A stretch of 64,000 nt of DNA from Cyanobium sp. Morenito 9A2 (GTDB taxonomy: Bacteria; Cyanobacteriota; Cyanobacteriia; PCC-6307; Cyanobiaceae), in NCBI RefSeq assembly GCF_024345575.1, contig NZ_JAGQBJ010000008.1, positions 1 through 64,000 on the forward strand, given 5' to 3'. The translations under genes were made by a program, and so were the position numbers. Below are positions 51,891 to 57,752 of the stretch, in pieces. The notes beneath the pieces were generated by a model. The model did no database searches. It was not told the origin of the DNA and was given only the letters and a program-made list of their open reading frames with translations. Positions within the stretch are counted from its first letter, which is position 1. The number at the start of each line of letters is the position of its first letter.

Positions 51891-53756
51891 TCAGGACCAG
51901 AAGCTTTCAAGATCGAGTTCATCAATCTGCTGTTTCGCTTCGCGAAAATAGGTGCTACTGGTGAGCCGCTCCACGTCCTTCTCCTTCTTGCCCTGATCGA
52001 TCTCGATCTTGAGCTCCCGCAACTGGCGCTCAAGCGCTTCCTCTCGCAACGTTCGATCCGTCACATCGCGGGCAATGCCTTCAAGGTAGAGGATCCTCCC
52101 AGCCGCATCCTTCACCAACCGAGCATCGAGCTCAAGCCAGATGCTGCTCCCATCCGTGCGGTTGGTCTGATACACGAAATCGGTCACCGTGCCATCGCGT
52201 TCAAGCAATTGCTGAAGGTTGGCGACCACCTGTGGCTGCTGGAAGAATTGGGCATTGACATCCTGGACAGACTCCAGCATGGCCTCAGCCGAGTGATAGC
52301 CGTAGATCGAAGCCAAAGCCGGGTTGGCCCGCAGCAGTTGACCCTCGGTACTGGACAGGAAAATACCATCCTGGGCATTCTCGAAGATGCTACGAAAGTT
52401 CTCCTCCGCAAGGGTGAGATCGAGGTTTGATTGCTCAAGCGCCGCAAACGACGTCTGCAGCTGCTGCGTCATGTCGTTGAAGGAACGCGCCAGCTGATTG
52501 ATTTCAATGATCTGACTGGAATCGACAGTCTGATTGAGGTCACCTCCAGCCAGTCTCCTGGCCGCTAATGATATCTTCTCGATGGGATTGGTGACCCACT
52601 GAGATGAGGCCACACCTAGAAAAACCGCAAACACGAGCGATCCGATACACAACAAGACGGTGGTCCTGGAATTGGCTTCGATCTGGCCCATAAAATCAGC
52701 TTCAGGAGTCACCACCAACAGCAGCCAGCGCAATCCCTTGCCATCTTCAAGTGGTGAAACACGCATCATTTCCCTCTTGCCATCGAGCGAGAACTCGTAC
52801 TGATGACTCATATCAAGATGACTGTATTCTCCTAAGTTTGTCGCCAGCACATTCATGGCGCCCTTGAGCATCGGATCCTTGGATTCACTCGCGAAGACCC
52901 TCTGAAGCTGATCACCTTTGCCAGTGATCAAGGGCTGATTAGCCGTGGAAGAGGCAATCAATTCACCACTCCGTTCAAAGATATAAACCTTGCTGTTTCG
53001 ACTGACCTTCAATGAGCGGAGAAATTCACTGATCTGATCGAGACTGATCTGGGTATTAAACACCCCCAAAAGCTTGCCCCCAGGTCCGAAGTATGGCGCT
53101 ACAGCATTTAGTTGCAGATTGTCGTAGCCGAAGTTGACCGTTACCGGCCCCCACGTTGGACGGCGGGCAGCCACTGCGGCCTTGAACAAGGGGGAATTAA
53201 TGGCAGAAAAATTAGAACGGACTTTCTCCACCCCCGCAGGATTACCAGAGCGCTCCAGCCCGTAGTAAACGAGATCTCCCTCACCTGGCTTGAGTTGAAT
53301 CGCCAACTGAGGTTCCTCTGCAGAGGCGAAGCGGTTGGTAGCCCAACCAATACGAAGGAAACGACCCTCACGATCCACCAGACCCGAGTAGCCAATATCA
53401 GTGAATGAATTCACCTGCTTCCAGAGAAAGGGGCGTGCGGCCTGGATGTTGTCAAAACTGATCAACCCCAGACTGGCAGCATTCGCATTTAACGCGTTGA
53501 CGCGGTGGGGCGTATTGAGAAAATTGCTGACCCGTACCGAAACCTGTTTCGCGATCGCGTCCTGGAGTTGCGCTGCCAACTCATTGACCGCCCGCTGGCT
53601 ATGTCGAAACGATAAAAAAGCCACCAGCCCCACGGTGGCCACCGTCTGGAGCACGAAGGGAACCACCAAGTAGGTGCGGAGGTTCAGGCGAATGGACCGC
53701 ACGCTCCATGACTGACGCCATCGTCTCCGGGTCTGTCGATGGTTACGAAGGATCAT
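51891..53756 (-). CDS. Membrane Cache-HAMP-PAS sensor protein without an output domain
   Basis: 621 aa. A first transmembrane segment lies at about 29-50. A ~310-residue extracytoplasmic region follows (FTDIGYSGLVDREGRFLRIGW, LLGVFNTQISLDQISEFLRSL, VYIFERSGELIAS), typical of a double Cache ligand-binding domain. TM2 is about 365-386, HAMP about 387-437 (VTNPIEKISLAARRLAGGDLN), PAS about 452-565 (ENFRSIFENAQDGIFLSSTEGQ ... LEGIARDVTDRTLREEA). The tail (566-621) is a coiled coil ending QQIDELDLESFWS. There is no HisKA, HATPase, GGDEF, cyclase or PP2C domain, so it probably signals through a protein partner. Lower GC than the core. Possibly linked to the glutaminase gene 181 bp upstream on the same strand. 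Confidence 0.85.
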   Translation of the reverse strand: MILRNHRQTRRRWRQSWSVRSIRLNLRTYLVVPFVLQTVATVGLVAFLSFRHSQRAVNELAAQLQDAIAKQVSVRVSNFLNTPHRVNALNANAASLGLISFDNIQAARPFLWKQVNSFTDIGYSGLVDREGRFLRIGWATNRFASAEEPQLAIQLKPGEGDLVYYGLERSGNPAGVEKVRSNFSAINSPLFKAAVAARRPTWGPVTVNFGYDNLQLNAVAPYFGPGGKLLGVFNTQISLDQISEFLRSLKVSRNSKVYIFERSGELIASSTANQPLITGKGDQLQRVFASESKDPMLKGAMNVLATNLGEYSHLDMSHQYEFSLDGKREMMRVSPLEDGKGLRWLLLVVTPEADFMGQIEANSRTTVLLCIGSLVFAVFLGVASSQWVTNPIEKISLAARRLAGGDLNQTVDSSQIIEINQLARSFNDMTQQLQTSFAALEQSNLDLTLAEENFRSIFENAQDGIFLSSTEGQLLRANPALASIYGYHSAEAMLESVQDVNAQFFQQPQVVANLQQLLERDGTVTDFVYQTNRTDGSSIWLELDARLVKDAAGRILYLEGIARDVTDRTLREEALERQLRELKIEIDQGKKEKDVERLTSSTYFREAKQQIDELDLESFWS

Positions 53757-53937
53757 GGTGGTGTAAGTAGCAGTCTAGAGGAGATCGCTTTGTCATCCTC
53801 TTTGCCGCCTGAAGACCAGGAAGGAAGGCTAAAGAAAGGTGAAGACCTCAACATCCGTCCGAATGAGTACGGGCGGGTCAAGGGGACATCAGGCAGGAAA
53901 AAGTAGCGGGCCAGAGTCTGCGGGGTTCTGGGGGGAT

Positions 53938-54969
53938 CTACCAGCCCAGGGAATGATCGTCGCCATTCATCCAACTGGTGAGGTCGTGTTTGGGAGTGGC
54001 CGTGTTGAACATATGCAGACCAAAATCACGCGAGAGTTCCTCGCAGACTTTAATCCCCCGAGTGCTATTGCCCTTGGCATCGAGGGGAGGCGAAAAAATT
54101 CCAATACCAAGCTTTCCGGAGGCAACGGCTGTGATCCCCCCAGCGACGCCACTCTTGGCGGGAATGCCCACCCGGTAAGCCCATTCGCCCGAGGCGTCGT
54201 ACATGCCGCAGGTGAGCATCAGACTGATCACATCCTGTACATAACGTTCATCGATCGCTCGTACACCCGTGACTGGATTCACACCACCATTGGCCAACGT
54301 GGCTGACATCATGGCCAGATCCTTGGCATTGACCAACATCGAGCATTGCTGAAAATACAGATCCAGTGTTTCATCTATTTTTTCGCCAACCATGCCAAAG
54401 TTCAACATCAGAAAAGCCATTGCCCTGTTTCGATGACCCGTCTGCTTTTCAGAAAGAAACACGGGAACATTAATGTCGTGAGCCCTTCCTGTGTAGCGCT
54501 CAAACATCTCAAGAATGCGCTTGAGGCGCTCCGTGCCGTTACGCCCCTTGATCAAATCCGTGGTGGCAATCGCACCTGAATTGACCATGGGATTATAGGG
54601 CCGATTAGTAGCCTCATCCAGGATGATTGAGTTAAAAGCTTCTCCAGTGGGCTCCATACCCACCTTGCTATTCACATACTTTCGGCCGTGATCTTCTAAG
54701 GCAAGCCCAAACACAAAGGCTTTTGAAATGGATTGAATAGTGAAGGTTTGCTCGCAGTCGCCCACTTCAAAGGCCTGGCCATCGGTGCTGACAACGCAAA
54801 TTCCAAAAGACTCCGGGCTTGCAAGCGCCAACTCAGGAATGTAATCAGCAACCTTTCCCTTTTTGAGAACGCGATGCTTGTTGTAGAGATCATTAAGGTA
54901 GCCCCTGAAGGGAGAAGCCACGGCATTGATCGTGCTCGCCAGCGATCCAAAACTCCCTAAATCAGCCAT
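53938..54969 (-). CDS. glsA: Glutaminase (GlsA family)
   Basis: 343 aa, slightly longer than the ~305-residue family norm because of N- and C-terminal additions. The serine-dependent beta-lactamase-like fold shows the S-x-x-K nucleophile (Ser80-Lys83) in TIQSISKAFVFGLALED, the N-P-M-V-N-S-G-A-I block after RPYN, GHRNRAMAFLM, LMLTCGMYDASGEWAYRVGIPAKSGVAGG. It hydrolyses glutamine to glutamate and ammonia. Its ATG lies three bases after the MinD-like stop with a GGAGGG ribosome site in the end of that gene, so the two are translated together. Codon use is A/T-richer than the core genes. Confidence 0.94.
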   Translation of the reverse strand: MADLGSFGSLASTINAVASPFRGYLNDLYNKHRVLKKGKVADYIPELALASPESFGICVVSTDGQAFEVGDCEQTFTIQSISKAFVFGLALEDHGRKYVNSKVGMEPTGEAFNSIILDEATNRPYNPMVNSGAIATTDLIKGRNGTERLKRILEMFERYTGRAHDINVPVFLSEKQTGHRNRAMAFLMLNFGMVGEKIDETLDLYFQQCSMLVNAKDLAMMSATLANGGVNPVTGVRAIDERYVQDVISLMLTCGMYDASGEWAYRVGIPAKSGVAGGITAVASGKLGIGIFSPPLDAKGNSTRGIKVCEELSRDFGLHMFNTATPKHDLTSWMNGDDHSLGW

Positions 54970-54972
54970 CGA

Positions 54973-55734
54973 TCAATCACCCTCCATGATCGCTTTTGCC
55001 ACCCGCTGAAACTCCTTTGTCAACGGGTGAGCTGGGTACTTCACGCAGAACACTCCTTCGCTGGCCAAGCGAGCAAAGTCTTCTGAAAGCGGAAAAATTC
55101 CAGCCACTGATTCCTTGTAGGTTTCGCTCACTTTCGCTTGCAATGCATCCAAATTAAGTTCACTATGAGCTTTGTTAATAGCAAGGAGCATCCGCCGAAC
55201 CTTGAGCTGTCGGGCCACATCGATGGTGACCGCCGTGCCCTGGTAATCCTGCTTATCCGGGCGCAATATCAACAGCAGCACATGGGAAATAGCAATCGAC
55301 AGGAACGTTTCCTTGGAAAGGCCCGGATGCGTATCGATGAAAAGGAAATCCAGCTTGAGCTGGCGAACGAGACTCCTGAAACCATCGTTCATCTTGCCCA
55401 CGTCGTAGCCCACCTGAAGGATGCGCGCAATGTCATCGGGCTTCACACTGGAGGGCACCAAAAAAATCTGGCCAGGGAGTTCGACCCCCACCTTGGCACT
55501 GACGTCATAGGCGGCTTCATCGATAGAGGCTTCGCCCCACAGATAATCATTGAGGGTTTTATCGACCTCCTCTTGTTCGAGGCAAAACAAATTGTGAATA
55601 CCCGGTGAAGGCACATCCGTGTCAATCACACCAACTCGAAAGCCTTGAGCCGCAATGGTGGTGGAAAGATTTGCCGTAAAATTAGATTTACCGGTGCCCC
55701 CTCGATAGGAATGTACGGAGACAACCTTCGGCAT
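54973..55734 (-). CDS. MinD/ParA-type P-loop ATPase with an altered signature lysine
   Basis: 253 aa from ATG 55734. The deviant Walker A is VVSVHSYRGGTGKSNFTANLS: the P-loop Lys16 is present, but the signature lysine of K-G-G-x-G-K is Arg11. Switch/Walker A' region GVIDTDVPSPGIHNLF and Walker B LDFLFIDTHPGLSKET follow, then LLLILRPDKQDYQGTAVTIDVARQL and VRRMLLAINKAH. This family couples ATP-dependent dimerisation to positioning or regulation of partners. It is not the cell-division MinD: there is no C-terminal amphipathic membrane helix. An AAGG ribosome site lies six bases before the ATG. An in-frame upstream extension to 55959 is not family-like. First gene of the glutaminase operon. Confidence 0.88.
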   Translation of the reverse strand: MPKVVSVHSYRGGTGKSNFTANLSTTIAAQGFRVGVIDTDVPSPGIHNLFCLEQEEVDKTLNDYLWGEASIDEAAYDVSAKVGVELPGQIFLVPSSVKPDDIARILQVGYDVGKMNDGFRSLVRQLKLDFLFIDTHPGLSKETFLSIAISHVLLLILRPDKQDYQGTAVTIDVARQLKVRRMLLAINKAHSELNLDALQAKVSETYKESVAGIFPLSEDFARLASEGVFCVKYPAHPLTKEFQRVAKAIMEGD

Positions 55735-55755
55735 TTTTGACCTTGAATCGTTCAA

Positions 55756-55797
55756 CACATAAGCTAAGACACTTGCAGCTGCGGTAACAGGGGCTAC
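55756..55797 (-). promoter_or_regulatory. NtcA-type nitrogen-control promoter (GTA-N8-TAC plus -10)
   Basis: GTAGCCCCTGTTAC on the minus strand (55797-55784) fits GTA-N8-TAC, the consensus for the global nitrogen regulator NtcA. A -10-like TATGTG (55761-55756) begins 22 bases after it, the spacing reported for NtcA-activated promoters; the last base is not the preferred T. TAGCTT at 55766-55761 is an alternative -10. The site is 50 bp upstream of the MinD-like ATG. The palindrome and spacing are observed; NtcA binding is inferred. Confidence 0.55.
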
Positions 55798-55957
55798 CGA
55801 GTTCGTCTTCCCTGCCCATGGTGGACCCCGCCCGTTTTCCCGTGGGCGGCCCCCGTCGATTCGCGGGCCGCCAGTCGTCGGGATTGTCGCAACCATGACA
55901 CCCGCCCAGGTGCTCCGCCTGCGATGACTGGATGCAGGCCGACCCTCCAGCGCATCC

Positions 55958-56374
55958 ATGGATCCTTCCCGTGCCTTTGCAGCGGTCGCCCTGGCCGCCG
56001 TCGCCTGGGATGGGGTGATGAGTCGCGCCGGTGCCCGGGCCCTGCGCCACGCCCTGGACTACCGCCCCCCTTACAACGAGCACAGCGACCAGCAGATGCT
56101 CGCTTTGTTGAACGAGCTGCTGGAGAGCCTCAAGCACAAAGGCGCTGAAGCGCTGTTGCTTGAGGCCTGCGGCGCCCTGGATGGGCGCCAACGCTTGACA
56201 GCCTTCGCCATGACGGCAGAAATCATGCGCTCGGATGGTCCCTTGCTGGAAGAAGAGCGCCGGATCCTCGATCACCTCTCGCTCGTACTTGAACTATCCG
56301 CCGACGAGAGCGAACAGATTCTGCAGGTGATGGACATCCTGCATGCAGGCCTCCTGGAGGCTGGGCTCAGCTGA
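55958..56374 (+). CDS. TerB-like (tellurite-resistance family) protein
   Basis: 138 aa, all helical. It reads FAAVALAAVAWDGVMSRAG near the N-terminus, then LEACGALDGRQRLTAFAMTAEIMRSDGPLLEEERRILDHLSLVLELS. The A-D-G-x-L-x-x-E-E pattern (here S-D-G-P-L-L-E-E-E) is the acidic metal-site signature of TerB/DUF533 proteins. These bind metal ions and appear in stress systems; role here is unknown. Divergent from the MinD-like gene with 223 bp between; the NtcA-like box is 161 bp upstream of it and could in principle act both ways. Confidence 0.78.
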   Translation: MDPSRAFAAVALAAVAWDGVMSRAGARALRHALDYRPPYNEHSDQQMLALLNELLESLKHKGAEALLLEACGALDGRQRLTAFAMTAEIMRSDGPLLEEERRILDHLSLVLELSADESEQILQVMDILHAGLLEAGLS

Positions 56375-56396
56375 GGCGGGCCGGTGACCGGTGCAA

Positions 56397-57752
56397 TCAG
56401 GAGGCCTGGGTGCTCAGATCGCTTTCGGGCAAGGAACCCAGGTGAAGGGTCTTGGCCCAGATCAGCCGTTTGGGCAGCAGGGCCATGCGCACGCTGACCC
56501 AGGGAATGACCACGAACCAATGGATCAGGTATCCAATCCCGAGGGCGAGGGTGATCGGGTTGGCCTCCGGCAGGGCTGGTCCTTCGCTGGGTCGCCGGCA
56601 GCCTTGAAGCATCGCCACCCCAGAAAGCCCCAGGGCCACCAGGGACAGGGGCCAGATCACCGGCCAGGTGCGGGTCAGGACCGAGGTGGCCAAATCGGCC
56701 ACCGCCACCACAGGCAGCCCGTACTGCAACAGGAAGAAACTACTGAGATCGAGCTTCCGAGGCAGGCTGACGCGCTCGGAAAGCAGCCCCGGCCAGTAAT
56801 CAAAGAAACGCTGCAGGCCCCCCTCGGCCCAGCGCTGGCGCTGGCGCCAAAGCGCCCCAAAGCTGAGCACAGCCTCCTCCTGCACCGGCGGATCCCAGAG
56901 CACGCCGATGGAGCGTCCCGCGAGCAAGAGCCTGAAACTGAGGTCAAGATCGTCGGTGACGGTGGCCTCATTGAATCCCCCGCATGCCTGAATCTCAGCC
57001 CGTAACAAGAGTTGGCCGTTGCCCCGCAGCTCGGCGATGCCTCCGCCGTCGAGGCGGCCCTGCTGAATCACCGCATCAAGGGCCATCTCCATCGCCTGGG
57101 CCTGGGTGAGCAGGTTGACCTCGGCGTTGACCACCGCCTTGCGCAACTGGACCGCTGACCAACCTCCCTGCTCAGCGAAGGGGATCAGCCGCTCGAGAAC
57201 ATCGCTCTGAAGCTGGGCATCGGCATCGAGCACCAACATCCAGCGGCCCTCCAACTGTGAAAGAACGGTGTTGAGGGCGCCGGATTTACCGCCTCCCGCC
57301 TCACGGCTGCGACGCACCAGGCGCAGGAAGGGGTGCTGGAGCCTGAGCCCGTCGAGCAGTTCGGGAGTGCGATCACTGCTGCCGTCATCAACAATCCACA
57401 GCAGCAACTGGCCGGCGGGATAACGAAGCTGAGCGATACGCTCCACCAGGCGGCCGATGACCGCCTCCTCATCCCTGGCCGCCACCACCACATCCACCAA
57501 AGGCACGGCCACCTCGACGTCGGGGTTGGTCGTTGCCGGGGCGCCATCGGTCTCAGCGCGACGACGCAGAGCGGCGAGCACCAGGGTGCGCAGGCTGTGG
57601 AGCCCGAGCAGCAGGGTCAAACTGAGGGCCGGCACAAGGCTGCGCCAGCCCTCGAGACCATGGGGAGCGATGCCGGCCGCTCCGCAGGCCAACAGGAACA
57701 GCGAGGCCTTCAGCCGTCGGCGATCGGTCCCCGTGCTGCCGTTCGCGGCCAT
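56397..57752 (-). CDS. Membrane glycosyltransferase family 2, probable monoglucosyldiacylglycerol synthase
   Basis: 451 aa. Two N-terminal membrane segments, a cytosolic GT2 domain and about three C-terminal segments. Motifs: VDVVVAARDEEAVIGRLVE, LLLWIVDDGSSDRT, WMLVLDADAQL (D-x-D), TVTDDLDLSFRLLLAG (T-D/E-D), and the processive-type WRQRQRWAEGGLQRFFDYW (Q-x-x-R-W). This layout, and the R-W-A-E-G-G-x-Q-R-x-x-D-Y-W block in particular, matches my recollection of cyanobacterial Sll1377 (MgdA), which makes glucosyldiacylglycerol, precursor of galactolipid. Cellulose-synthase-like or other lipid GT roles remain possible. Confidence 0.72.
   Translation of the reverse strand: MAANGSTGTDRRRLKASLFLLACGAAGIAPHGLEGWRSLVPALSLTLLLGLHSLRTLVLAALRRRAETDGAPATTNPDVEVAVPLVDVVVAARDEEAVIGRLVERIAQLRYPAGQLLLWIVDDGSSDRTPELLDGLRLQHPFLRLVRRSREAGGGKSGALNTVLSQLEGRWMLVLDADAQLQSDVLERLIPFAEQGGWSAVQLRKAVVNAEVNLLTQAQAMEMALDAVIQQGRLDGGGIAELRGNGQLLLRAEIQACGGFNEATVTDDLDLSFRLLLAGRSIGVLWDPPVQEEAVLSFGALWRQRQRWAEGGLQRFFDYWPGLLSERVSLPRKLDLSSFFLLQYGLPVVAVADLATSVLTRTWPVIWPLSLVALGLSGVAMLQGCRRPSEGPALPEANPITLALGIGYLIHWFVVIPWVSVRMALLPKRLIWAKTLHLGSLPESDLSTQAS

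Follow-up and report, generated by a model that had tools for sequence, protein, structure and literature searches.

A candidate NtcA-binding palindrome upstream of a MinD-like ATPase, glutaminase and sensor operon in Cyanobium sp. Morenito 9A2

Does a short palindrome ahead of a MinD-like ATPase gene place a glutaminase operon under the nitrogen regulator NtcA, or does it stand there by chance? We analysed a window of 64,000 nt, i.e., the whole stretch of DNA considered here, on contig NZ_JAGQBJ010000008.1 of Cyanobium sp. Morenito 9A2. The palindrome GTAGCCCCTGTTAC lies on the minus strand with 49 bases between it and the ATG (55734) of the MinD-like gene, bearing out a first-pass annotation that had placed it 50 bp before this start codon, and the TATGTG that the annotation had put 22 bases further on is found at exactly that spacing. 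The features needed below are listed by position; G001 is the sole other genome of the genus that was compared.

51891..53756, minus strand: dCache-HAMP-PAS sensor (P0003, 621 aa), probable third gene of the operon by synteny, after a 181-base gap
53938..54969, minus strand: glsA, glutaminase (P0002, 343 aa), in PF04960, 3 bases past the MinD-like gene
54973..55734, minus strand: MinD/ParA-like P-loop ATPase (P0001, 253 aa), first gene of the operon
55741..55746, minus strand: TCAAGG, with a putative Shine-Dalgarno-like role, 6 bases upstream of the ATG; conserved in G001
55754..55764, minus strand: block GCTTA-N2-TGTT, conserved with G001 in an ungapped comparison; includes the candidate -10
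55756..55761, minus strand: TATGTG, weak candidate -10 hexamer (not TAN3T), 22 bases past the palindrome; TAGTTG in G001
55783..55798, minus strand: extended inverted repeat GGTAGC-N4-GTTACC; the Morenito genome and G001 differ solely in the N4
55784..55797, minus strand: NtcA-type palindrome GTAGCCCCTGTTAC (GTA-N8-TAC), kept at -63 in G001 as GTAGCGCTCGTTAC
55958..56374, plus strand: divergent TerB-like gene (E 2e-4; 22 bits, under the Pfam cut-off of 24.4)

The operon, its leader and the candidate -10

The glsA product scores 368.8 bits against an NCBIfam cut-off of 255.4 (TIGR03814) and matches solved glutaminases. The MinD-like, glsA and sensor genes have 51-54% G+C with a GC3 of 57-63%, compared with 63.5-71% and 75.5-82%, respectively, in four neighbour genes; the intergenic region (55735-55957), at 62.8% G+C, resembles the whole window (63.4%). 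In a sample of 400 genomes of the family, the MinD-like gene is present at more than 51% identity only in the two of this genus, and orthologues in other cyanobacteria reach up to 79% identity across the whole protein. Judged by this composition and distribution, the operon was likely acquired laterally. No output domain was found in the sensor protein by Pfam. As a separate observation, made by reading the DNA by eye, the C-terminal tail of the sensor (YF...FWS) is nearly repeated at the end of a homologue just upstream of the orthologue at locus L019 and is perhaps a docking tail.

Two other roles for the element were considered and rejected. As a site for the divergent TerB-like gene, the palindrome is separated from the gene start by 160 bases, and TAN3T is absent at N18-26 on the TerB-like strand. 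The inverted repeat also scored as terminator-like on the plus strand, where no plausible gene end is present and the tail reads AGTTCGTCTT.

The motif by itself says little. In 100 dinucleotide shuffles of the window, 0.76 GTA-N8-TAC (sd 0.81) are expected; three are observed, and three or more were reached by 2 of the 100 shuffles. Across the whole 3.10-Mb genome there are 46, and roughly 37 are predicted from the shuffle rate. The motif alone is near background, as the first-pass annotation had cautioned, though rarer than the several random occurrences per 64 kb that it had assumed, a figure that is too high.

Immediately past the palindrome come the 22 bases CGCAGCTGCAAGTGTCTTAGCT and then TATGTG (55761..55756, minus strand). 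According to the available text of PMC3898017, canonical NtcA promoters combine GTAN8TAC centred at about -41.5 with TAN3T. TATGTG was rejected as a canonical -10, since neither it nor its G001 counterpart TAGTTG is TAN3T, and no TAN3T starts 18-26 bases past the palindrome in either genome. Because the hexamer departs from TAN3T, we did not class the promoter as a canonical class II promoter; the first-pass proposal of an NtcA class II promoter thus lost its canonical -10 and kept its NtcA site, which is supported by the comparisons below. TAGCTT occurs 17 bases past the palindrome in the window and not in G001. A consensus scan of 55500-56100, which is weak evidence on whether the promoter lacks a strong -35 box of its own, found no sigma-70-type site on the minus strand and one on the plus strand.

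Conservation of the palindrome within and beyond the genus

The close-range comparison consists of one pair, the Morenito genome and G001, whose MinD-like proteins are 90% identical. In G001, GTAGCGCTCGTTAC stands at exactly -63, the same position as in Morenito, inside GGTAGC-N4-GTTACC-GCA. Identity is 15/19 over -65..-47, 21/46 over the rest of the leader and 11/24 just upstream; GCTTA-N2-TGTT and TCAAGG are the parts of the leader that also agree. The first-pass annotation had staked its reading on the palindrome not being lost in close relatives, and in the one relative checked it is retained. A scan of the 220 bases preceding the ATG, with small offsets allowed, gave a tie at 16/19 between the 19-base windows at -64 and those at -193 and -197. 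The palindrome thus shares the rank of best-conserved block with one other, and our confidence in the NtcA reading was lowered marginally for this tie. The second stretch (16/19), some 193-215 bases upstream of the MinD-like start codon and near the TerB-like start, is perhaps the promoter or leader of the TerB-like gene, and its presence on that side keeps a TerB-like reading of the palindrome conceivable.

To look beyond the genus, we used a scan of named genomes that kept 80 loci, from which 56 upstream regions of orthologues (65-80% identity) were taken. Three loci were dropped, namely, L065 (apparently a duplicate of the L019 contig), L090 (truncated at its start) and L100 (a MAG labelled betaproteobacterial, 59%). 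In 51 of the 56 regions glsA lies on the same strand within 400 bases; the remaining five are without a verified adjacent glsA, three having none and two being cut by a contig end. This recurrent neighbourhood of the MinD-like ATPase and glutaminase genes suggests a functional link between the predicted proteins, of unspecified nature.

Perfect GTA-N8-TAC occurred 12 times, in 12 of the 56 regions, against a shuffle mean of 2.75, and none of 100 shuffles reached 12; nine pairs within the set share more than 20 15-mers. The other spacings tried (2-7 and 9-14) gave 0 to 6 occurrences, and the highest of these, 6 at spacing 4, was matched in 4 of 100 shuffles. Of the 13 spacings, 8 shows the strongest excess. 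When 64 triplets were compared at spacing 8, GTA ranked first (z 5.9). Relaxed sites, in which one of the six bases may differ with GT and AC fixed, numbered 41 at spacing 8 against 16.8 expected (0/100 shuffles), and 9-22 at the other spacings from 4 to 12. Elsewhere in these loci (483 kb) spacing 8 shows no excess, with 58 perfect and 429 relaxed sites compared with 38-70 and 410-488, respectively, over spacings 4-12. The 12 regions with a perfect site come from differently named records and have no 15-mer in common; 10 of these sites are no more than 150 bases from the start, with a full spread of -23 to -298, and no perfect site is present in the other 44 regions. Inner bases of the orthologue sites vary, while the excess follows GTA/TAC at spacing 8. 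Moreover, TAN3T stands exactly 23 bases downstream of 8 of 38 relaxed sites, two of the eight being near relatives (L083 and L085), and the other spacings from 0 to 59 give 0-5.

A further search of 388 genomes of the class returned 26 new loci, 21 of which duplicated earlier sequences; the five fresh loci held no perfect and one relaxed site at spacing 8, against four relaxed sites at spacing 10. Upstream of 32 paralogues without glsA, we counted 20 relaxed sites at spacing 8 (five of them one common or nearly common sequence), 3-11 at other spacings and only one perfect site. Since these paralogues are also high, the relaxed signal does not go with glsA alone.

NtcA, its control promoters and a second glutaminase gene

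Both genomes carry an NtcA gene whose product scores over the curated cut-off (244.95; the Morenito protein reaches 370.4 bits). The best PDB matches are NtcA structures, and the C-terminal stretch LSHQAIAEAIGSTRVT, which we take to be the DNA-reading part, is nearly identical to solved NtcA. Upstream of ntcA itself, the near-consensus GTG-N8-TAC sites GTGTCAATGGCTAC in Morenito and GTGTCTGTTGATAC in G001 each stand 63 bases before the ATG, a distance equal to that of the operon palindrome (-63), with TAGCTT at N22. For urtA we found GTG-N8-TAC with TACATT or TACGTT at N23, and for one amt gene per genome GTGCCTTTGGCTAC with no TAN3T at N22; no 5-of-6 site was present in the 420 bases examined for glnA of G001. 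Known NtcA targets are an uneven control. The glnA-type glutamine synthetase gene of Morenito (G000:C2:33440-34646, reverse) is broken into three parts and contains an in-frame TAG, through either a genuine lesion or an error of assembly; a GTA-N8-TAC (C2:34730) lies about 83 bases before the fragmented gene. The G001 glnA is intact and over the family cut-off.

Perfect sites were then paired between the two genomes, taking in all 46 of Morenito and 44 of the 57 of G001, so that some conserved pairs may be missed. At least seven Morenito sites align within 10 bases with a G001 site, among them the operon palindrome and a site before a second glutaminase gene (L143). In another pair (L141), GTAGCAATGGCTAC and GTAGCAATGGATAC lie 161 bases before the PII gene glnB in the respective genomes; the protein matches P-II models under their cut-offs, and glnB is a known NtcA target. 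Two pairs (L003 and L139) are apparently inside long reading frames. The sixth, L149 (1493-1506) with L176, has GTATCGACCAATAC flanked by genes for a histidine kinase and a DUF3155 protein, and the seventh is L148. Among the Morenito sites, GTAGTCCTCCATAC (L006 1501-1514; G000:C1:307044) stands 30 bases before the gene of the CRP-family regulator PtrA and had no counterpart among the 44 of 57 G001 sites compared.

This pairing led us to the second glutaminase gene, glsA2, which encodes a weak STAS-like tail (G000:C14). A search of 151 genomes of the family gave matches in 31, and 24 of 30 loci were used, Morenito and G001 included, with L280-L285 omitted (42-45% identity). The 24 upstream regions hold 11 perfect GTA-N8-TAC and none at spacings 4-7 and 9-12. 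At least a relaxed site is present in 17 of the 24, at -47 to -110; the other seven have none, even relaxed. Outside the 300-base regions, 88,347 bases of the same loci contain no perfect site at spacing 8, and 0-5 at other spacings except for 14 at spacing 4. As these sequences are related, the counts are not independent; the evidence lies in how spacing 8 differs from the other spacings and the upstream regions from their surroundings. When the 17 sites are aligned, C5 and G10 of the inner part each occur in 15, as they do in the present site; both are present in 9 of the 46 Morenito GTA-N8-TAC sites. Past 13 of the 17 sites T-N3-AT is found at N22 or N23; any other spacing up to 33 has it at most once. 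TAN3T is found at N22/N23 in none of the 17, so the canonical -10 may be relaxed at the glsA2 promoter. One caution is that the Morenito glsA2 site sits within a longer inverted repeat.

Weighing the readings and comparison with known systems

Conservation at the same place in G001, the spacing-8 enrichment before orthologues, the glsA2 motif and an NtcA gene with a site of its own all support an NtcA site, and predicted NtcA binding is well supported by comparison. On these grounds we consider it probable that the palindrome is an NtcA-binding site controlling the MinD-like ATPase, glutaminase and sensor operon. NtcA, the 2-oxoglutarate-responsive nitrogen regulator of cyanobacteria, would then bind as a dimer at about -41.5 from a start predicted near 55749 and, acting as a class II activator, would recruit RNA polymerase to the weak -10 (TATGTG). 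Transcription of the operon would rise under nitrogen shortage, with a leader of about 15 bases that places TCAAGG before the ATG.

NtcA might instead bind and repress or modulate, keeping glutaminase low in nitrogen shortage and sparing glutamine. Glutaminase opposes glutamine synthetase, the -10 is weak and the start point only predicted, and in other cyanobacteria the perfect sites are spread between -23 and -298. In addition, transcripts of Anabaena glsA1 are described as dropping for a time when nitrogen is limiting (available text of PMC12052932, citing Zhou 2008), which points opposite to activation. However, TAN3T exactly 23 bases behind 8 of the 38 orthologue sites and T-N3-AT at N22-23 behind 13 of the 17 glsA2 sites are the geometry of activated promoters, and we regard repression as unlikely. 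A fortuitous position upstream of a gene for one of the genome's 46 GTA-N8-TAC would agree with a genome-wide count close to the shuffle rate, with the noncanonical -10 and with a comparison inside the genus that is a single relative, but the same position in G001 between diverged flanks and the enrichment before orthologous operons make chance a very improbable explanation.

It is also conceivable, with a probability that we place between those of chance and repression, that the element is a leader RNA hairpin or the operator of another regulator with the palindrome GGTARC-N4-GYTACC. The 22-mer around the palindrome folds at -8 kcal/mol, a value that none of 200 shuffles reached, the stem is identical in Morenito and G001, and the inverted repeat around the Morenito glsA2 site is likewise longer than the NtcA motif. 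Nevertheless, covariation cannot show in two sequences with an identical stem, shuffles of the 96-base leader fold at least as well as the leader itself (z +1.45), and the excess before orthologues is tied to GTA/TAC at spacing 8 with variable inner bases. A known riboswitch or other RNA family was rejected, as no Rfam match (E up to 1) falls within 53500-56500.

If the palindrome is an NtcA site, the MinD-like ATPase and the sensor, otherwise without an assigned role here, would gain a place in nitrogen control, and the arrangement suggests a foreign-looking operon wired to a host regulator. A broader proposal, to which we give somewhat less than an even chance, is that the NtcA regulon generally includes a glutaminase branch, with two separate promoters, one heading what is probably a lateral cassette, and that shortage switches on both the making and the splitting of glutamine. 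The regulator that activates glutamine synthetase would then also control the enzyme that undoes its work, either as a deliberate cycle around glutamine or as a case of repression. Splitting would perhaps draw on glutamine that is stored or imported, or serve to set the glutamine/2-oxoglutarate signal itself.

In the open-access article texts searched, we found no link between NtcA and a glutaminase promoter, though an NtcA ChIP table in a supplement or subscription paper may list one. The available texts of PMC12052932, PMC3899235, PMC7411178, PMC10454706 and PMC4537470 do not report NtcA control of glutaminase; PMC5069947, as far as its available text goes, offers a gene list only, and PMC11080293 also mentions both NtcA and glsA. 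Nothing relevant to glutaminase together with MinD was found among the matches listed.

Like slr2079 of Synechocystis and glsA1 of Anabaena, the glsA product of the operon is a glutaminase (PF04960). The available parts of the papers on these two genes cover the enzyme and its expression and do not mention an upstream NtcA site. Fold changes of slr2079 compare engineered strains in one nitrogen-poor medium (available text of PMC3899235) and, because of this single medium, are uninformative on the nitrogen response. The glnB promoter of the same two genomes also has a conserved site, at -161, but this site is further from the ATG and has another -10 region. The canonical NtcA-activated class II promoters, named as glnA, urtA, nirA and ntcB in the available text of PMC3898017, share with the present locus GTA-N8-TAC and about 22 bases to the -10 position, whereas the -10 here is TATGTG instead of TAN3T. 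For ilvG, the same source terms a spacing of 22 bases before the -10 class II-like, and the geometry of the present site makes class II activation of the operon by NtcA likely.
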